This document shows positions 13,242-22,075 of a stretch of 64,000 bases of DNA, one piece after another. Origin of the DNA: Arenibacter echinorum (GTDB lineage: Bacteria; Bacteroidota; Bacteroidia; Flavobacteriales; Flavobacteriaceae); contig NZ_QLLN01000003.1 of assembly GCF_003259375.1 (NCBI RefSeq), positions 548,955-612,954 on the forward strand, written 5' to 3'. Position 1 is the stretch's first letter; every line of letters begins with the position of its first letter. Position numbers and translations under genes: made by a program. The notes beneath the pieces are model-generated. The model ran no database searches. It worked only from the letters and a program-made list of their open reading frames with translations, and was not told where the DNA came from.

Positions 13242-14057
13242 ATGGATAAATTACCAAAAATTGCATTACCGGCCATATTCGGCTTAATAGTTCTTGTAAT
13301 ATTAATTTCAAAATCGGCCGTTACCATTGGCTCAGGTGAAGCCGGAGTGTTATATAAAACTTTTGCTGGCGGTGTGGTGACAGATGAACCTCCTTTAGGT
13401 GAAGGATTCCATCTTGTAGCGCCTTGGAACAAGGTTTTTATATATGAGGTTAGACAGCAAGAAGTCTTGGAAAAAATGCAGGTATTGTCCTCCAACGGAC
13501 TTGAGATTAAATTGGAAGCTTCTGCCTGGTTTGAGCCTAAACGAGAATTTATAGGAAAATTGCACCAGGAAAAAGGCACGGAATATATTCAACGTGTATT
13601 ATTGCCTACCATTAGATCTGCTGCTCGTAGTGTTGTAGGAAGATATACCCCGGAACAACTGTATTCCAGTAAAAGGGATGCCATACAGCAAGAAATTTTT
13701 GAAGAGACCCAAAAAATTGTAGATGGGCAGTATATTCAACTCAACGAAATATTGGTTAGGGATGTAACCCTGCCAGCTACCATTAAGGAGGCTATAGAGC
13801 GAAAACTTAAGCAGGAACAGGAATCCTTGGAATATGAATTTCGATTGGTTACTGCACAGAAGGAAGCCCAGAAAGTAATTATAGAGGCTCAGGGTAAGGC
13901 AGATGCCAACACCATACTAAGTGCCTCTTTGACCGATAAGATATTAAGGGATAAAGGTATTGATGCTACCATTAAATTGTCGGAATCTCCCAATGCCAAG
14001 GTAATCGTTATTGGAAGTGGGGAATCAGGAATGCCGATTATACTAGGGAATCAATAA
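13242..14057 (+). CDS. Prohibitin/SPFH-domain membrane protein
   Basis: A 271-aa band-7 protein. An N-terminal membrane segment (about 8-26) is followed by an SPFH domain (PPLGEGFHLVAPWNKVFIYEVR) and a Gln/Glu/Lys-rich coiled coil (EAIERKLKQEQESLEYEFRL onward in part) that would drive ring assembly. In known prohibitins this gives large membrane-organising rings that influence proteases and membrane-domain structure. It is paired with the VWA protein upstream. The next element is the his attenuator. Confidence 0.9.
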   Translation: MDKLPKIALPAIFGLIVLVILISKSAVTIGSGEAGVLYKTFAGGVVTDEPPLGEGFHLVAPWNKVFIYEVRQQEVLEKMQVLSSNGLEIKLEASAWFEPKREFIGKLHQEKGTEYIQRVLLPTIRSAARSVVGRYTPEQLYSSKRDAIQQEIFEETQKIVDGQYIQLNEILVRDVTLPATIKEAIERKLKQEQESLEYEFRLVTAQKEAQKVIIEAQGKADANTILSASLTDKILRDKGIDATIKLSESPNAKVIVIGSGESGMPIILGNQ

Positions 14058-14118: not shown

Positions 14119-14126
14119 TAATTTTG
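14119..14126 (+). promoter_or_regulatory. -7 promoter box of the his operon
   Basis: TAATTTTG matches TAnnTTTG. Transcription would begin about at the leader-peptide ATG (14134), giving a leaderless or nearly leaderless leader peptide. No clear TTTG is seen at the -33 position. Confidence 0.6.
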
Positions 14127-14133
14127 CCTTATC

Positions 14134-14190
14134 ATGAAAAATAACAGGACACATCATCATCATTTCTTCACTTGCAATCAAGCGAGCTAG
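14134..14190 (+). CDS. hisL: his operon leader peptide (HHHH)
   Basis: An 18-residue open frame, MKNNRTHHHHFFTCNQAS, with four consecutive CAT His codons at 14152-14163. It sits between the his promoter box and an intrinsic terminator upstream of hisG. This is the layout of a classic amino-acid leader peptide: a ribosome stalls on the His codons when charged tRNA-His is scarce. It is about the same length as the enterobacterial HisL but has a different sequence. No other role for such a short His-rich frame here is plausible. Confidence 0.9.
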   Translation: MKNNRTHHHHFFTCNQAS

Positions 14191-14254
14191 GAATGTATTG
14201 TTGTATCTAAACTATATTCTAACCCGTTTGAGCAATCAAACGGGTTTTGTATTT
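14171..14254 (+). promoter_or_regulatory. Transcription attenuator of the his operon
   Basis: Three mutually exclusive pairings can be drawn. 1:2 is CTTG (14171-14174) with CAAG (14179-14182). 2:3 is TCAAGCGAGCTA (14178-14189) with TAACCCGTTTGA (14220-14231): ten of twelve positions pair, counting one G-U. 3:4 is the terminator at 14221-14246. Ribosome stalling at the His codons would leave arm 2 free to pair with arm 3 and prevent termination; a ribosome reaching the stop codon covers arm 2 and allows termination. The geometry fits attenuation well. Confidence 0.85.
14221..14254 (+). terminator. Attenuator terminator upstream of hisG
   Basis: An 11-bp perfect stem, AACCCGTTTGA (14221-14231) with TCAAACGGGTT (14236-14246), closed by the stable GNRA-type tetraloop GCAA and followed by a T-rich tail. 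It lies between the leader peptide and hisG, so it must be read through for his expression. Confidence 0.92.
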
Positions 14255-14298
14255 AACAACCTGTTAGATTTGTTCAGGCCAAAAACAAAATACCAAAA

Positions 14299-15156
14299 AT
14301 GAAAAAAATTAGAATTGCGATCCAAAAAAGCGGCCGATTAAACGAAGACTCACTTCAAATATTAAAAGACTGTGGTATTTCCATAGACAATGGAAAAGAC
14401 CAGCTTAAGGCTTCTTCCAGAAATTTTCCTTTAGAGGTTTTCTATCTTAGAAATGGAGATATCCCCCAATATCTTAGGGATGGGGTCGTAGATATTGCCA
14501 TTATTGGCGAAAATGTCCTCATAGAAAAAGGTGAGGATATTTCCATTGCCGAGAAACTGGGTTTTTCCAAATGCAAAGTATCCTTGGCGGTACCCAAATC
14601 GGTCAAGTACAAATCGGTGGCAGATTTTGAAGGTAAAAGGATTGCTACTTCCTATCCCAATACCGTAAAGAATTATTTGGATAGCAAGGGCGTAAAAGCA
14701 GATCTTCACATTATAAACGGTTCTGTAGAAATTGCCCCAAATATTGGATTGGCAGATGCCATATGCGATATTGTTTCCAGCGGCAGTACGCTGTTCAAAA
14801 ACAATTTAAAGGAAGTTGAAGTAATGTTGACCAGTGAAGCCGTACTGGCCGTTTCTCCACAAATTTCCCAAGAAAGAACGGTCTTATTGGAAGACTTAAG
14901 ATTTAGGATCCAGTCCGTATTACGTGCCAGACAGTCCAAATATGTGCTTTTAAACGCACCAAACGAAAAGCTAAACGAGATTATTGGACTATTGCCGGGT
15001 ATGAGGAGTCCAACCGTACTTCCTTTGGCCGAAGAAGGCTGGAGTTCCGTACATACCGTAATTAATAAGGACAAGTTTTGGGAAGTAATCCAGGAGCTCA
15101 AAAAAGCAGGAGCAGAGGGAATACTGGTTTGCCCTATAGAAAAAATGGTATTGTAA
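14299..15156 (+). CDS. hisG: ATP phosphoribosyltransferase HisG (long form)
   Basis: First enzyme of histidine synthesis: it condenses ATP and PRPP and is feedback-inhibited by histidine. At 285 aa this is the long form. Residues about 1-205 are the catalytic periplasmic-binding-like fold (IQKSGRLNEDSLQILKDCG, and the PRPP-binding stretch DAICDIVSSGSTL). The C-terminal 75 residues form the ACT-like regulatory domain (LPGMRSPTVLPLAEEGW and KKAGAEGILVCPIEKM). Long-form HisG does not need HisZ, and none is seen. First structural gene of the operon. Confidence 0.97.
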   Translation: MKKIRIAIQKSGRLNEDSLQILKDCGISIDNGKDQLKASSRNFPLEVFYLRNGDIPQYLRDGVVDIAIIGENVLIEKGEDISIAEKLGFSKCKVSLAVPKSVKYKSVADFEGKRIATSYPNTVKNYLDSKGVKADLHIINGSVEIAPNIGLADAICDIVSSGSTLFKNNLKEVEVMLTSEAVLAVSPQISQERTVLLEDLRFRIQSVLRARQSKYVLLNAPNEKLNEIIGLLPGMRSPTVLPLAEEGWSSVHTVINKDKFWEVIQELKKAGAEGILVCPIEKMVL

Positions 15157-15163
15157 TAGTGCT

Positions 15164-15595
15164 ATGGTCAATGAAATTCAAATAGGGTTTATTCCAAAGG
15201 AGAATATGAATGAAATTTTGCCTTTGGTACAAATGCTCAACAACTATAAAGTTCCTGTCGAAACCCTTAAAAAACGATTGCAGGATATGCTATTGGACGG
15301 ATATCAATGTTTGGGCGCTTATAAAAAAGAAGAATTAATCGGTATTTGTGGTATTTGGGTTTTAAATAAATTATATGTAGGCAAACATCTGGAACCGGAC
15401 AATGTATTCGTATTGCCGGAATATAGAAGTGCTGGGGTTGGAAAATTAATGTTGGACCATGTTTTGAACTATGCGTTGGAAATTGGATGCAATGCCACTG
15501 AGATCAACTGCTATATAAATAATACGAAAGGAATTCAGTTTTGGAACAACCAAGGATACAAGACCATAGGTTACCACATGCAAAAAGTATTATAG
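15164..15595 (+). CDS. GNAT acetyltransferase inside the his operon
   Basis: A 143-aa GNAT-fold protein. The acetyl-CoA-binding motif is present as VLPEYRSAGVGKLML (the R/Q-x-x-G-x-G/A signature) at about residue 85, with the late beta-strand/helix pair NATEINCYINNTKGIQFW and NQGYKTIGYHM. It starts 7 bases after hisG and ends 2 bases before the hisD start, so it is fully integrated in the operon. The substrate is unknown. A link to histidine or its intermediates is an inference from position only. It could equally be a housekeeping acetyltransferase carried along. Confidence 0.85.
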   Translation: MVNEIQIGFIPKENMNEILPLVQMLNNYKVPVETLKKRLQDMLLDGYQCLGAYKKEELIGICGIWVLNKLYVGKHLEPDNVFVLPEYRSAGVGKLMLDHVLNYALEIGCNATEINCYINNTKGIQFWNNQGYKTIGYHMQKVL

Positions 15596-15597
15596 TA

Positions 15598-16881
15598 ATG
15601 AACAAGATATACAATCCGGAAAGATCACAATGGAAGGCCGTTTTAAAACGGCCAACACAATCTGTCTCCGATGTCGAGGATATTGTCAATGCCGTTTTTA
15701 GTGAAATTAAGGCTGGTGGGGATAGCGTGGTGAGCAATTACACCAAAAAATTTGATGGTGTGGTCTTGCAGGAAGCTTTGGTATCATCCAAGGAGATAGA
15801 GGAATCCATTAAATTGATTTCCAATGATTTAAAATCGGCTATTCAACAAGCTAAAAACAATATTGAAAAATTTCACAAGGCCCAAAAAACCGAAAAAATT
15901 ACGGTAGAGACTGCAGATGGCGTACTTTGCTGGCAAGAAAAAAGGCCTATACAGAAAGTAGGATTATATATTCCAGGAGGTACCGCCCCTTTGTTTTCGA
16001 CCATTTTAATGTTGGCCATTCCTGCCAATATTGCTGGATGTAAGGAGATTATTCTTTGTACCCCTCCCAATAAGGAAGGGAAAGTACACCCGGCCATATT
16101 ATATGCAGCCAACCTATGCGGGGTTACCAAAATATTTAAGGTGGGAGGTATCCAAGCTATTGCCAGTATGACTTTTGGAACAGAAACCATTCCTCCCGTC
16201 TATAAAATATTTGGGCCAGGAAATCAATTTGTAACCGTTGCCAAACAAATAGCCACAAAATATGGTGTAGCCATTGACATGCCTGCAGGTCCCAGTGAAC
16301 TTTTGGTGATGGCCGATGATACCGCCAATGCAGCATTTGTAGCCTCTGATCTCTTGAGCCAGGCAGAACATGGTGTGGACAGTCAGGTTATTTTAGTATC
16401 CACTTCCAAAAATTTTATAGATGCCGTTGAAGCGGAGGTAGCTGAGCAAATTAAGGATTTGCCGAGAAAAGAAATAGCCGAAAAGGCTATAGCCAATAGT
16501 AAATTAATTTACGTGGATAGCCAACAGACGGCTGTAGATTTAATCAATGAGTACGGTCCGGAACATTACATTCTATGTGTTAAAAATGAAGAATTTTTCC
16601 TAAGACAAACCTATAATGCCGGTTCTGTTTTTATTGGGAATTACACTCCGGAAAGTGCAGGGGATTACGCATCTGGAACCAATCATACGCTACCGACCAA
16701 TGGATATGCGAAACAGTATAGTGGCGTAAACCTGGATAGTTTTATGAAGAGCATGACCTTTCAAAAAATATCTAAAAAAGGAATCCAGGAAATTGGTAGG
16801 ACCATAGAATTGATGGCCGAAGCCGAAGGGCTACAGGCGCATAAAAATGCAGTTACCCTTAGATTGGACAGTTTAAAATAA
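15598..16881 (+). CDS. hisD: Histidinol dehydrogenase HisD
   Basis: Catalyses the last two steps of the pathway, oxidising L-histidinol to histidine with 2 NAD. The open frame extends back to 15541, but the ATG at 15598, just after the GNAT stop, is the better start and gives the normal length of 427 aa. Visible signatures are GLYIPGGTAPLFST, the GPGNQFV and PAGPSELLV segments, the zinc and catalytic region SQAEHGVDSQ, and the catalytic Glu/His in YGPEHYIL, with the end GDYASGTNHTLPT. Confidence 0.97.
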   Translation: MNKIYNPERSQWKAVLKRPTQSVSDVEDIVNAVFSEIKAGGDSVVSNYTKKFDGVVLQEALVSSKEIEESIKLISNDLKSAIQQAKNNIEKFHKAQKTEKITVETADGVLCWQEKRPIQKVGLYIPGGTAPLFSTILMLAIPANIAGCKEIILCTPPNKEGKVHPAILYAANLCGVTKIFKVGGIQAIASMTFGTETIPPVYKIFGPGNQFVTVAKQIATKYGVAIDMPAGPSELLVMADDTANAAFVASDLLSQAEHGVDSQVILVSTSKNFIDAVEAEVAEQIKDLPRKEIAEKAIANSKLIYVDSQQTAVDLINEYGPEHYILCVKNEEFFLRQTYNAGSVFIGNYTPESAGDYASGTNHTLPTNGYAKQYSGVNLDSFMKSMTFQKISKKGIQEIGRTIELMAEAEGLQAHKNAVTLRLDSLK

Positions 16882-16928
16882 TGGGATCCGTGTATTGAGG
16901 TAAAACACCGTTAAACCCTTGATACCAA

Positions 16929-18008
16929 ATGGCGAAAAGCATAAAAAAAATGAAAACGAAAATATTCAATATCAACAATATAGTACGGGAAAACGTAAAG
17001 GGGTTGAGTCCCTATTCTTCTGCAAGGGACGAATATGTTTCGGACGGTTCCAAGATGGTTTTTTTGGATGCCAATGAAAACCCTTTCGAAACTGGTGTAA
17101 ATAGATATCCGGATCCACATCAAAGACGCTTAAAAGAAGTCTTGGCAGAAAAAAAGGGAGTTTCCACACAACAACTTCTTTTAGGGAATGGTAGTGATGA
17201 GGTGTTGGATTTAATTTTTCGGGCCTTTTGCGAACCCAAAGAGGACAATATTATCTCCTTACCACCCACATACGGTATGTATAAGGTACTTGCAGGAATA
17301 AACAATGTGGAGAATAGAGAGGTATTATTGACAAAGGAATTTGAACCCAATGTAGCAGAAATACTGAAAGTAGCTGATGGTAAGAGTAAATTACTATTTC
17401 TCTGCTCGCCAAACAATCCCACCGGAAATAGCTTTTCCAGTAGCAGCGTTAGGGAGTTGTTGGACAATTTTAATGGATTGGTAGTAGTAGATGAGGCTTA
17501 TGTCGACTTTTCAAGTGAAAAAAGCTGGATTACGGAATTATCCAACTATCCCAATCTGGTGGTTACCCAAACCTTATCCAAAGCCTATGGAATGGCCGGA
17601 ATACGATTGGGAACATGTTACGCTTCTGAAGAAATTATCTCGATATTGAATAAAATTAAACCTCCATACAACGTAAATGAATTGACACAGCAAAGAGCGC
17701 TGGAAAGGGTTTTGGACGCAAATGCAGTTAATTTGGAGGTATCGGATATTTTAACGGAACGGGAAGCTCTTGTCAATGTATTGGGTCAAGTAGACTTCGT
17801 GGACAAGATATACCCTTCCGATGCCAATTTTGTATTGGCCAAGGTGGATGATGCTACCAAAAGATATAATCAATTGCTAAAAAAAGGTATCGTTGTCCGC
17901 AACAGAACAACCCAACCCCTTTGTGAAAACACCTTGAGATTTACTGTAGGTACCAAGGAGGAAAATAAGATATTAATAAGTGCATTGCAGAATATAACAA
18001 CCATATAA
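16929..18008 (+). CDS. hisC: Histidinol-phosphate aminotransferase HisC
   Basis: PLP enzyme that converts imidazole-acetol phosphate to histidinol phosphate with glutamate. The 359-aa fold-type I aminotransferase shows [36 protein letters not shown] and the PLP lysine in [14 protein letters not shown]. The start at 16929 gives a short extra N-terminus; Met8 (16950) is a possible alternative. It follows hisD by 47 bases and is 4 bases from hisB. Confidence 0.96.
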
Positions 18009-18012
18009 TACT

Positions 18013-19191
18013 ATGAGTCCGGATACAAATATAAATTCCCCACAAGGGAAGCAAAAGGGGAAAAAAGTGCTCTTTATAGACAGGGACGGCACTATTATCA
18101 AGGAAACCGTAGATGAACAAATCGATTCTTTTGAAAAAATGGTGTTCTATCCCAAGGCCTTTACTTTTTTAGGTAAAATAGCCAAGGAATTGGATTATGA
18201 ATTAGTGATGATTACCAATCAGGATGGATTGGGGACCGATATTTTTCCTGAGCATACCTTTTGGCCGGTACATAATTTTATATTGAAATCGTTCGAAAAT
18301 GAGGGTGTAGTTTTTGACAAGGTATTTCTTGACAGGACATTTCCCCACGAAAATGCCAATACCCGAAAACCGGGAACTGGATTGCTTACCGAGTATTTTT
18401 CAGAAGAATACGACCTGGCCAATTCCTTTGTAATAGGCGACCGTTTGACCGATGTGGAACTCGCAAAGAATTTAGGGGCCAAAGGAATCTTTATCAATGA
18501 CAATACCAATTTAGGGACCGGGGAAATATCCGTTAAAAGGGAGGAACTGGATAATTATATAGCCCTTGAAAGCAATGACTGGGAGAAAATTTATGAGTTT
18601 CTAAAACTGAACGACCGGTTATCTGAAATAACTCGCAAAACCAATGAAACCGATATTTTTATAAAACTCAATTTAGACGGTACCGGCAAAAGTGATATCA
18701 GCACCGGATTGGACTTCTTTAATCATATGTTGGATCAATTGGCACGTCATGGCCAAATGGACCTGGAAATAAAGGTTAAAGGAGATCTGGAAGTGGATGA
18801 ACACCATACCATTGAGGATACAGCCATAGCGCTGGGAGAGGTATTCCATAAAGCCTTGGGCAACAAATTGGGGATAGAAAGGTACGGTTTCTGTTTGCCT
18901 ATGGACGACTGTCTGGCACAGGCAGCTATTGATTTCGGCGGGCGCAACTGGTTGGTATGGGAAACAGAATTTAAAAGGGAAATGATAGGTAAAATGCCTA
19001 CGGAAATGTTTTATCATTTTTTTAAATCGTTTACAGATGGGGCAAAGGCCAACCTAAATATCAAGGCCGAAGGCCAGAACGAACACCATAAGATCGAGGC
19101 CATTTTCAAGGCGTTTGCCAAGGCCATTAAGATGGCCGTTAAACGCGATGTAGAAAAAATGGTGCTGCCAAGTACCAAAGGTGTATTATAG
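18013..19191 (+). CDS. hisB: Bifunctional histidinol-phosphatase / IGP dehydratase HisB
   Basis: A 392-aa fusion. The N-terminal HAD phosphatase (about 15-180, FIDRDGTII with the nucleophile Asp, TNQDG, and the late [10 protein letters not shown]) removes phosphate from histidinol phosphate. The C-terminal imidazoleglycerol-phosphate dehydratase (about 200-392) has both metal-binding HHxxE-type motifs, [10 protein letters not shown] and [10 protein letters not shown]. The fusion is known from enterobacteria and many Bacteroidota and supplies two pathway steps. Confidence 0.97.
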
Positions 19192-19222
19192 AAGAAATAA
19201 ATAAATCCTAGGGACAAAGAAA

Positions 19223-19819
19223 ATGAAAATAGTAATTATAGATTACGGAGCTGGAAATATACAGAGCATTAAATTTGCCTTTCAACGCTTGGGATACGAA
19301 GCTATCTTGAGCAAGGCTGCAGATGAGATCATGGCAGCGGATAAAGTTATTTTTCCGGGTGTGGGAGAAGCCAGCAGTGCCATGAAAAAATTACGCGAAA
19401 GTAAATTGGACCAAATCATACCCAAATTAACACAGCCGGTATTGGGAATTTGCCTCGGGATGCAATTAATGTGTCATTCCTCGGAAGAAGGAGATACACA
19501 GGGCCTTGGTATTTTTGATGTAGATGTGATTAAATTTTCCAAAGAGGTAAAAGTTCCACAAATTGGATGGAATCAAATTACCAATTTGAAATCCGATTTA
19601 TTCAAGAACGTCAAAGAAAAAGAGCATATTTATTTAGTGCACAGTTTTTATGCCCCATTATGCGAAGAGACCATAGCCGAAGCAGAATATGGTTTGGGAT
19701 ATAGTGCCGCTTTAAAAAAAGATAATTTTTATGGAACTCAATTCCACCCGGAAAAGAGCAGTGAGGTAGGGGAGCAGATTCTTAGAAATTTTATCGAAAC
19801 TATAGAGACCCCAGTATAA
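19223..19819 (+). CDS. hisH: Imidazole glycerol phosphate synthase, glutaminase subunit HisH
   Basis: Supplies ammonia from glutamine to HisF. The 198-aa class I glutamine amidotransferase has the nucleophile Cys in LGICLGMQLM, the ring-forming GAGNI near the start, and the His/Glu pair in GTQFHPEKS. The end is followed by a 20-base perfect palindrome before hisA. Confidence 0.97.
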   Translation: MKIVIIDYGAGNIQSIKFAFQRLGYEAILSKAADEIMAADKVIFPGVGEASSAMKKLRESKLDQIIPKLTQPVLGICLGMQLMCHSSEEGDTQGLGIFDVDVIKFSKEVKVPQIGWNQITNLKSDLFKNVKEKEHIYLVHSFYAPLCEETIAEAEYGLGYSAALKKDNFYGTQFHPEKSSEVGEQILRNFIETIETPV

Positions 19820-19820
19820 A

Positions 19821-19840
19821 TAAATACCAATTGGTATTTA
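19821..19840. repeat. 20-base palindrome between hisH and hisA
   Basis: TAAATACCAATTGGTATTTA is a perfect palindrome. In RNA it would be an 8-bp stem with an AATT loop; no T-run follows on the + strand, so it is not a standard terminator. It could be a processing or stabilising hairpin, or a protein-binding site. Confidence 0.6.
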
Positions 19841-19852
19841 ATAAAAACAAAA

Positions 19853-20581
19853 ATGAGAATAATACCTGCAATAGATATCATTGAAGGAAAATGTGTTAGA
19901 CTTTCCAAGGGAGATTACGATACCAAGAAGATTTACAATGAGAATCCCTTGGAGGTGGCAAAGGAGTTTGAAGCCCATGGGATAGAATACCTACATTTAG
20001 TAGATTTGGACGGTGCCAAATCCAAGCACATTGTAAATCATAAAGTGCTGGAAAAAATAGCCTCCAATACCAACTTAAAAATTGATTTCGGGGGTGGACT
20101 TAAGACCGATGTAGATCTAAGGATAGCGTTTGAAAGTGGAGCCAATCAAATTACAGGAGGAAGTATTGCTGTAAAAGACAGGGAAACCTTTATCTCTTGG
20201 ATCAACAAATACGGTCCGGAGAAAATTATTCTAGGAGCAGATGCCAAGGATGAGATGGTGGCTGTATCCGGTTGGATGGAAGAATCCAAGGAGGAGCTGG
20301 TTCCCTTTATCCAAGGGTATCAAAAAGAAGGAATCAGAGGGGTTATCTGTACCGATATCAGCAAAGATGGTATGTTGGAAGGCCCTTCCTTTAATTTGTA
20401 CCGTAAAATTTTAGAAGAATGCGGGCCTAAATTATTGTTGATTGCCAGTGGCGGTATTTCAACTTTTGAGGAACTCCCTAAATTGGCCGAGTTGGGTTGT
20501 GAGGGAACCATAATTGGGAAGGCCATTTATGAAAATAGAATTAGTTTAAAACAGTTGGAAAAATTTATTCTCGATATTTAA
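19853..20581 (+). CDS. hisA: Phosphoribosylformimino-AICAR-phosphate isomerase HisA
   Basis: Isomerises ProFAR to PRFAR. The 242-aa TIM barrel opens with [16 protein letters not shown], contains DLDGAKS, the FGGGLKT phosphate-binding turn and the second half catalytic region [14 protein letters not shown], and ends with ASGGIS and IIGKAIYE. It is related to HisF downstream by ancient duplication. Fourth-from-last gene of the his operon. Confidence 0.97.
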
Positions 20582-20677
20582 CCAATAAATCCTGTTGTAG
20601 TATAATGGGGACAAGCTAGTAATAGCATTGAAGATATTAACTGGATTCATCTCCAAAGACACAAATAAAAGTACCCA

Positions 20678-21433
20678 ATGTTAACAAAAAGAATAATCCC
20701 TTGTTTGGATATTAAAAACGGTAGAACGGTAAAAGGGATAAACTTCGTAGATCTGCGAGATGCAGGAGACCCTGTGGAACTAGCAGAAATCTATGCCAAA
20801 ACCGGAGCTGACGAGCTTGTTTTCCTTGATATTTCCGCTACCGAGGAGAGGAGGAGAACATTGGCCGATTTAGTGCTGCGCGTTGCTGAAAAAGTCAATA
20901 TTCCGTTTACTGTAGGAGGTGGTATTTCTTCCGTGGAAGATGTAGATATTTTGCTACACAACGGAGCGGATAAAGTATCCATAAATTCATCGGCTGTAAA
21001 AAATCCTCAATTGATCAATGACCTCGTAGCCAAATTTGGCTCCCAATGTATAGTTGTAGCCATAGATGCCAAACAAATAGATGGGGAATGGATAGTACAT
21101 TTGGTAGGAGGGAAGGTCCCCACAGAACTAAATCTTTTTACCTGGGCAAAGGAAGTGGAAACTCGAGGGGCAGGAGAAATCCTGTTTACTTCCATGAACC
21201 ATGATGGCACTAAGGACGGATTTGCCAACGAAGCTTTGGCCAAATTATCCACCGAATTGAATATTCCAATAATAGCATCGGGCGGAGCAGGAAATATGCA
21301 ACATTTCACGGATACATTTATAGAAGGCAAGGCAGACGCTGCTTTGGCGGCAAGCGTTTTTCACTTTAAGGAAATCGAAATTAAAGACTTGAAAGAAGAG
21401 TTAAAAAGAAATAATATACCGGTTAGATTATAA
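20678..21433 (+). CDS. hisF: Imidazole glycerol phosphate synthase, cyclase subunit HisF
   Basis: The cyclase partner of HisH: it uses the ammonia channelled from HisH to form imidazole glycerol phosphate and AICAR. The 251-aa TIM barrel has the catalytic Asp in [14 protein letters not shown], the phosphate loops VGGGISS and ASGGAGN, and [12 protein letters not shown] with the second catalytic Asp. It is separated from hisA by 96 bases with no clear terminator, and is 6 bases from hisIE. Confidence 0.97.
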
Positions 21434-21439
21434 AACCTT

Positions 21440-22075
21440 ATGGAATCCAAAATTATGAACATAGACTTTAATAAAAATAACGATGACCTTGTCCCGGCCA
21501 TAGTACAGGATGCAATTACCAAAAATGTACTAATGCTCGGGTATATGAACCAAGAAGCTTATCAAAAAACATTAGATAGCCGTAAAGTAACCTTCTTTAG
21601 TCGCACTAAAGAAAGATTATGGACCAAAGGGGAGGAAAGCGGAAATTTTTTGAATCTAGTGGATATTAAACTCGATTGTGACAATGACACCCTATTGATC
21701 ATGGTAAATCCTGTTGGGCCAACATGCCACAAAGGAACCGATACCTGTTGGGGCGAAGATAACAATACTTCCTTTGGGTTTATTTCTGAATTGGAAAATA
21801 TTATTCAAAACAGAAAAGAACAAGCTGAGGGAAAAATAGAGATTCCAGAAGGAACAAAACCTAGCTATGTTTCCTCTCTATTTAAGAGCGGCATCAATAA
21901 AGTTGCCCAGAAAGTAGGGGAAGAGGCCGTAGAGGTCGTAATTGAAGCCAAAGACGATAACGACCAGCTGTTTAAGGATGAAAGCGCCGATCTTTTGTTC
22001 CATTACCTAATATTGCTGCAGGCCAAGGGATTTAAACTTCAGGACATTGTTAATGTTCTGAAGTCTCGGCATTGA
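21440..22075 (+). CDS. hisIE: Bifunctional PR-AMP cyclohydrolase / PR-ATP pyrophosphatase HisIE
   Basis: A 211-aa fusion that performs steps 2 and 3 of histidine synthesis. The N-terminal HisI domain (about 1-110) shows MLGYMNQEAYQKT, SRTKERLWTKGEESGN and the metal/catalytic region DCDNDTLL and GPTCHKGTDTCW. The C-terminal HisE domain (about 120-211) shows VAQKVGEEAVEVVIEAK and the DESADLLFHYLILL helix. Met6 (21455) is a possible alternative start. Last gene of the his operon. Confidence 0.97.
   Translation: MESKIMNIDFNKNNDDLVPAIVQDAITKNVLMLGYMNQEAYQKTLDSRKVTFFSRTKERLWTKGEESGNFLNLVDIKLDCDNDTLLIMVNPVGPTCHKGTDTCWGEDNNTSFGFISELENIIQNRKEQAEGKIEIPEGTKPSYVSSLFKSGINKVAQKVGEEAVEVVIEAKDDNDQLFKDESADLLFHYLILLQAKGFKLQDIVNVLKSRH

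Follow-up and report, generated by a model that had tools for sequence, protein, structure and literature searches.

A very probable ribosome-mediated attenuator of the histidine operon of Arenibacter echinorum, with a leader peptide predicted close to the 5′ end of the mRNA

The his attenuator of enteric bacteria combines a run of His codons, competing RNA helices and a terminator placed before hisG, and attenuation by a stalled ribosome works only when the ribosome follows closely behind RNA polymerase. To our knowledge, the phylum to which Arenibacter belongs lacks Shine-Dalgarno sequences. A comparative study of Vitreschak and colleagues, in 2004, reportedly predicted attenuators in Bacteroidetes/Chlorobi, so that attenuators in this phylum have to be regarded as known.

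Strong clues for leader-peptide attenuation have been printed for Flavobacterium psychrophilum, with amino-acid operons carrying leader peptides and promoters of the TAnnTTTG type as at the locus considered here, although the part of that account consulted names neither a his leader nor a leaderless leader ORF (PMC9723704). The statement of an earlier note on the present DNA, that it knew of no thorough account for Flavobacteriia, has to be qualified accordingly, and so has its view of a leaderless attenuator as unusual, leaderless attenuator ORFs being known in Sinorhizobium (PMC7298713) and in mycobacteria (PMC9031893). In Sinorhizobium meliloti trpL the transcript of the attenuator starts at the leader ATG, but the organism is an Alphaproteobacterium and the operon is trp, as opposed to his and a start about 3 nt before the ATG here (PMC7298713). 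The mycobacterial polycysteine attenuators also carry a short leaderless ORF that encodes a run of the regulated amino acid, but belong to Actinobacteria and respond to cysteine (Canestrari et al. 2020, via PMC9031893). The Bacteroid-trp RNA motif (RF01692) is also a candidate cis-regulatory RNA of Bacteroidetes, the table entry for which does not describe a leader peptide (PMC2864571). In the part consulted of a published overview that covers his genes across the Bacteroidota superphylum, attenuation is mentioned once, for enterics, and the word ‘leader’ is absent (PMC8305728); the consulted parts of PMC6429828 and PMC4833913 add nothing on the clade of interest. A literature search at the level of titles and abstract openings, with most subscription journals outside it, returned neither his attenuation nor leaderless leader peptides in Flavobacteriia. 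Likewise, near-leaderless leaders of several operons in Flavobacteriia and their recurrence in the class were not found in a search that had most subscription journals and supplements outside its reach.

The window, namely the whole stretch of 64,000 nucleotides analysed, belongs to a 5.2 Mb genome whose hisG gene shares 99% identity with its counterpart in Arenibacter sp. ARW7G5Y1. The upstream gene ends at 14057 and is followed by a −7 box, a leader of 18 codons, a terminator and hisG at 14299, with the following elements:

14119..14126, + strand: −7 promoter box TAATTTTG of the Bacteroidetes sigma-A type (from sequence; the TAnnTTTR box is conserved)
14131, + strand: predicted transcription start, base A (from box spacing and the pyrimidine/purine pattern)
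14134..14190, + strand: leader peptide ORF MKNNRTHHHHFFTCNQAS, ATG at 14134 and stop codon TAG at 14188-14190 (from sequence and conservation)
14152..14163, + strand: control codons, four consecutive CAT (His), read from the sequence
14161..14167, + strand: outer 5′ arm of segment 1, CAUUUCU, with partner at 14189-14195 (alignment pairing)
14171..14175, + strand: inner 5′ arm of segment 1, CUUGC, with partner at 14182-14186 (alignment pairing)
14178..14189, + strand: segment 2, 5′ partner of the antiterminator, UCAAGCGAGCUA, in the last leader codons; pairs with 14220-14231
14182..14195, + strand: 3′ side of the 1:2 hairpin, GCGAG at 14182-14186 and AGGAAUG at 14189-14195 (alignment pairing)
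14220..14231, + strand: segment 3, 3′ partner of the antiterminator, overlapping the 5′ arm of the terminator (pairing and folding)
14221..14246, + strand: terminator hairpin 3:4, 11 bp, GCAA loop at 14232-14235, then an interrupted U-tract (folding)
14299..15156, + strand: hisG, ATP phosphoribosyltransferase, first gene of the operon (TIGR00070 above cut-off)
14299..22075, + strand: his operon hisG-D-C-B-H-A-F-IE, complete (NCBIfam-confirmed)

The −7 box, the 18-residue leader and the four CAT codons described in the earlier note were confirmed in the sequence (14119-14190), as was its 11-bp terminator with GCAA loop before hisG, for which folding of the window gave −15.7 kcal/mol. The U-tract 3′ of this hairpin is short and interrupted (UUUUGUAUUU). 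The interval between hisG and hisD holds an extra ORF of 143 residues (15164-15595), which by eye would resemble a GNAT-type acetyltransferase.

The resemblance to the enteric his attenuator (RF00514, His_leader) extends to the His run, the 1:2, 2:3 and 3:4 helices, the terminator before hisG and the logic of the system; the locus differs in its near-leaderless start. The RF00514 model found no match in the window at the gathering score and exceeded the cut-off in none of 41 genomes of the family, with two sub-threshold matches in other genomes and a positive E. coli control. The locus very probably controls the his operon as a ribosome-mediated transcription attenuator, and its mRNA is predicted to begin about 3 nt upstream of the leader ATG. 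We infer where transcription starts, that ribosomes initiate at the 5′ end, that transcripts do terminate and that histidine elicits a response; these steps would be connected as follows. RNA polymerase would start about 3 nt before the leader ATG, so that the mRNA would open almost at the start codon. With His-tRNA scarce, the first ribosome would stall on the CAT run and mask segment 1; segment 2 would then pair with segment 3, the terminator would come too late and hisG would be transcribed. With His-tRNA plentiful, the ribosome would reach the stop codon and cover segment 2, the 3:4 helix would form and transcription would end. At the level of sequence and comparison, the elements of this scheme that can be taken as established are the leader ORF, conservation, the competing helices, the folding switch and the spacing of the box.

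Conservation was evaluated in a clade set of 81 sequences, made of the window and the best 80 of at least 543 hisG relatives from a scan of named genomes, to which all clade counts below refer. A short ORF with a His-codon run lies upstream of the histidine-making operon in the window, and a His-rich small ORF precedes hisG in 80/80 of these best relatives, so that its presence is no accident. Histidine attenuation by a stalled ribosome, in line with the earlier note, is the best reading of the locus. Three or more consecutive His residues are present in 77 of the 80 relatives (78/81 with the window), the exceptions being L053 (YHH), L060 (HQHH) and L080 (HRHH). At the DNA level, 72 different sequences are represented among the 81 leaders. 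The peptide has 17 or 18 residues in 78 cases and 14 in three, with eight residues after the last HH in 77. Leader indels correspond to whole codons in the clade alignment, which contains 60 sequences out of 77 prepared (81 in all) and omits near-duplicates and three sequences with an unclear terminator end. His is encoded by CAT 258 times and by CAC 32 times in the leaders, the values for hisG of the best 80 relatives being 102 and 72, respectively. A pattern search of the Arenibacter genome itself returned the his locus (twice) and one match on contig C1.

For a broader view, hisG was found in 127 of 295 genomes across the class and upstream DNA was taken for 80 of the 127; the 80 were hand-picked, favouring matches that reach the hisG start and a spread of families, and the other 47 were not included. 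Within this selection a His-rich ORF is present in 74/80 upstream regions by a loose rule, and a His-rich leader in 67/80, from 28 families, by a strict rule, which 13/80 fail. Five class hisG upstream regions (L126, L129, L147, L149 and L150) carry a different His-rich frame, ending in HHSS, with an inverted repeat of the UUCCUCCU/AGGAGGAA type at the stop codon. Four of the five are without a strong T-tailed terminator, L149 having a G+C-rich candidate, and these loci are perhaps under another kind of his control.

With respect to the RNA, the 142-nt region of the window folds far below its shuffled versions (z −3.84; none of 200 as low). By sequence and folding, an intrinsic terminator lies between the leader and hisG; a hairpin with a T-rich tail is present in 81/81 clade and 71/74 class sequences, 66 of the latter 71 at −9 kcal/mol or below. 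The antiterminator pairing of the earlier note (14178-14189 with 14220-14231) was recovered with 10 of 12 positions paired and a duplex energy of −15.2 kcal/mol (p = 0.01 versus 100 shuffles). By the same test (100 dinucleotide shuffles per sequence, p ≤ 0.05), the pairing is significant in 77/81 clade sequences and not in four, and in 46/71 class sequences and not in 25. Thus, the best 80 relatives carry the His frame (80/80) and, counted with the window, nearly always the competing arms (77/81), the absence of which the earlier note had named as evidence against attenuation.

The 8-bp core of the antiterminator is paired in 96.3% of the cells of the clade alignment of 60 sequences, with zero two-sided changes, so that covariation gives it no support within the clade. 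Between families, the arm sequences vary yet remain complementary: on cross-pairing of arms between families, mean energies were −15.4 kcal/mol for cognate and −11.2 kcal/mol for non-cognate pairs. The cognate arm ranked first in only 8/31 sets (30 families plus the window), since many families share one or the other of two common arm types, CCCGUYUGA and GGCUUACC. As for the first hairpin, the 4-bp CTTG/CAAG helix of the earlier note has to be replaced: the conserved structure is CUUGC/GCGAG inside CAUUUCU/AGGAAUG, and takes in the last His codon. In the clade alignment, its outer helix is paired in 88.3% of cells, with two-sided changes in 5/7 pairs, and its inner helix in 84.7%. The hairpin was first seen in a single-sequence fold and then tested by naming it in the alignment; its 34 two-sided-change cells, compared with 10.5 in shuffles (0/500 as high), also exceed those of slid versions, a comparison biased towards the hairpin because one of the aligned sequences was its source. 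By coarser measures the signal is weak, with six pairs showing a two-sided change (36/500 shuffles as high) and 15 further pair types (147/500). The covarying arms that the earlier note proposed to look for in relatives are found, within the clade, for the 1:2 hairpin and not for the antiterminator core. RNAalifold, applied to the clade alignment of 60, returned the terminator only. A nearly invariant stretch of the same alignment, AUGUAUUGU (14193-14201), lies 3′ of the leader stop codon, and only its first three bases fall within the tested 1:2 helix.

The effect of ribosome position was calculated for the window by folding the transcript up to the start of segment 4 after removing the RNA behind a parked ribosome. 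In such folding, as anticipated in the earlier note, competing structures appear, with an antiterminator that excludes the terminator and is switched by the position of the ribosome. With the ribosome on any His codon the antiterminator probability is 0.98, and from codon T12 onward it is 0.10 or less for footprints of at least +12, the value at T12 with a footprint of +10 being 0.62. The same contrast, His run versus stop codon, is reproduced in 80/81 clade sequences (mean pairing between arm 3 and the RNA upstream of it, 0.79 versus 0.18) and in 63/66 class sequences with strong terminators (0.71 versus 0.15). The exceptions are L050, the one clade failure, in which the terminator was miscalled, and L091, L132 and L139. 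When no ribosome is present, the antiterminator reaches 0.75 in the window (mean arm pairing, 0.63 in the clade and 0.38 in the class), so that the model predicts no clean termination of an untranslated leader. For the complete window transcript at equilibrium, the terminator has a probability of 0.96-0.97 whatever the position of the ribosome; antitermination must then be kinetic, which is the general view for such attenuators.

The predicted start of the transcript is what mainly sets the locus apart. A TAnnTTTR box lies 6-8 nt before the leader ATG in 75/81 clade sequences (gap of 7 nt in 59, 8 nt in 15 and 6 nt in one); among the 59 with a 7-nt gap, there is a purine at the predicted +1 in 55 and a pyrimidine at −1 in 57. 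The flavobacterial −7 box has been placed at −12 to −5 (PMC9723704), and probable promoters of F. johnsoniae have 4 or 5 nt from box to start (PMC6847099). By combining these distances with the box spacing, a 5′UTR of about 3 nt is obtained, predicting a near-leaderless his mRNA that would start about 3 nt before the leader ATG, and the near-leaderless start of the earlier note is to this extent supported. As a background in the window, a box at 3-9 nt was found before 2 of 63 ORFs (ATG, at least 120 aa) and 32 of 2247 ATGs. Published shares of short leaders are small: in F. psychrophilum 5.5% are leaderless (PMC9723704), in B. thetaiotaomicron about 3.7% are shorter than 10 nt (PMC7366714), and the predicted leaders of F. 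johnsoniae exceed 10 nt in 87% of cases (PMC6847099).

In the class, the gap is 8 nt or less in 15 of 67 leaders (from 11 families; the start codon is TTG or GTG in two of the 15), between 9 and 12 nt in 14 and larger in 23, whereas another 15 have no matching box. The box lies exactly 4 nt before the ATG in the his leaders of L117, L121, L137, L143 and L145, in which the predicted start would be the A of ATG, giving a truly leaderless mRNA. On the hisG tree the near-leaderless label requires four changes and is clustered (5/500 shuffles as low), a distribution with which a single origin would be compatible.

Other amino-acid leaders bear on the same question. The Arenibacter genome carries a trp leader MKNMVSNTWWWSNLRKTS, with box TATATTTG and a gap of 7 nt to the ATG, and an ilv leader MKINRSIIKLVIVVPQMG, with box TAATTTTA and a gap of 5 nt; trp leaders contain WWW and this ilv leader an Ile/Val run, each matching its own pathway. 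In 30 loci of the family, ilv leaders gave too irregular a picture for a tally, and the claim on ilv is confined to the Arenibacter genome. A candidate thr leader MTFNHTDNKLLNTPFIDGCIAITVISTTTPLG (L171, contig C1) lies 5′ of an aspartokinase/homoserine dehydrogenase gene, and its gap of 16 nt after the −7 box indicates that the near-leaderless arrangement does not extend to every leader. Of 30 genomes (this one and 29 family relatives), 29 have a trp leader. In the 26 genomes where a his and a trp leader are both present, the near-leaderless form is shared by the two leaders in eight, absent from both in 15 and limited to trp in three, and none has it in his only (Fisher p = 0.0001, n = 26, uncorrected for kinship and with a rule set after the first table). 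This rule calls a leader near-leaderless as soon as one in-frame ATG 5′ of the Trp or His run qualifies; in the first table, of 12 genomes, those without a matching box had been dropped (p = 0.24).

Other explanations of the locus were weighed against these data. Leader-peptide attenuation could be real and yet use an ordinary 5′ leader transcribed from a promoter farther upstream, the close box being unused, a reading that is considered improbable. The six clade sequences without a close box (L067, L070, L074, L075, L078 and L080, from two Aquimarina, Kordia, Leeuwenhoekiella, a Flavobacteriaceae and Spongiivirga) lend it some substance, because leadered versions seem to exist among them: in four a looser box lies at 17-19 nt, another has no box nearer than 41 nt and L080 has a loose TACTTTGT at 8 nt. 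The 16-nt gap of the candidate thr leader, a second TAnnTTTA at gap 13 in the window and the lack of a clearly established −33 element point in the same direction. However, 75/81 sequences of the clade set retain the close box at 6-8 nt, a pyrimidine/purine start is present at the expected place, and the gap-13 box has a G where F. johnsoniae promoters almost never do (PMC6847099).

Control of the terminator by a riboswitch, a T-box or an RNA-binding regulator, with an incidental peptide, is given very little credence. It would account for the near invariance of AUGUAUUGU in the clade, but Rfam gives no match for the window at the gathering threshold (at a relaxed E-value, 15 matches, all below the gathering score, lowest E 0.084), the His runs persist although the arm sequences change between families, and the WWW of trp and the Ile/Val run of the Arenibacter ilv leader follow their respective pathways. 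Equally hard to credit is a constitutive terminator with an inconsequential His-rich frame and hisG driven mainly by an internal promoter, since the −7-like box TAGATTTG (14265-14272) that would serve it, which precedes hisG by 26-27 nt in the window as well as in L002 and L004, has a G at the disfavoured position (PMC6847099), the interval between terminator and hisG lacks TAnnTTTR in 75/81 clade sequences, and the His leader and the competing arms are conserved. In these three sequences, the TAGATTTG box could act as a promoter that bypasses the attenuator.

Returning to attenuation by the ribosome on a near-leaderless mRNA, the mechanism is that of ordinary ribosome-mediated attenuation, and the new part is the predicted near-leaderless arrangement, with the −7 box 6-8 nt before the ATG. 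It is tentatively suggested, as a possibility with less than even chances, that in this clade and repeatedly elsewhere in the class several amino-acid leaders are placed at the 5′ end of the mRNA for immediate ribosome loading, so that leaderless initiation would time the arrival of the first ribosome and keep it coupled to RNA polymerase. Elsewhere in flavobacteria, only a small minority of mRNAs are leaderless. The occurrence of near-leaderless and leadered versions in related genera would offer a natural contrast for relating leader length to attenuation. The attenuator anatomy found in 67/80 class upstream regions would imply tight coupling of transcription and translation in a phylum that initiates translation without Shine-Dalgarno pairing.
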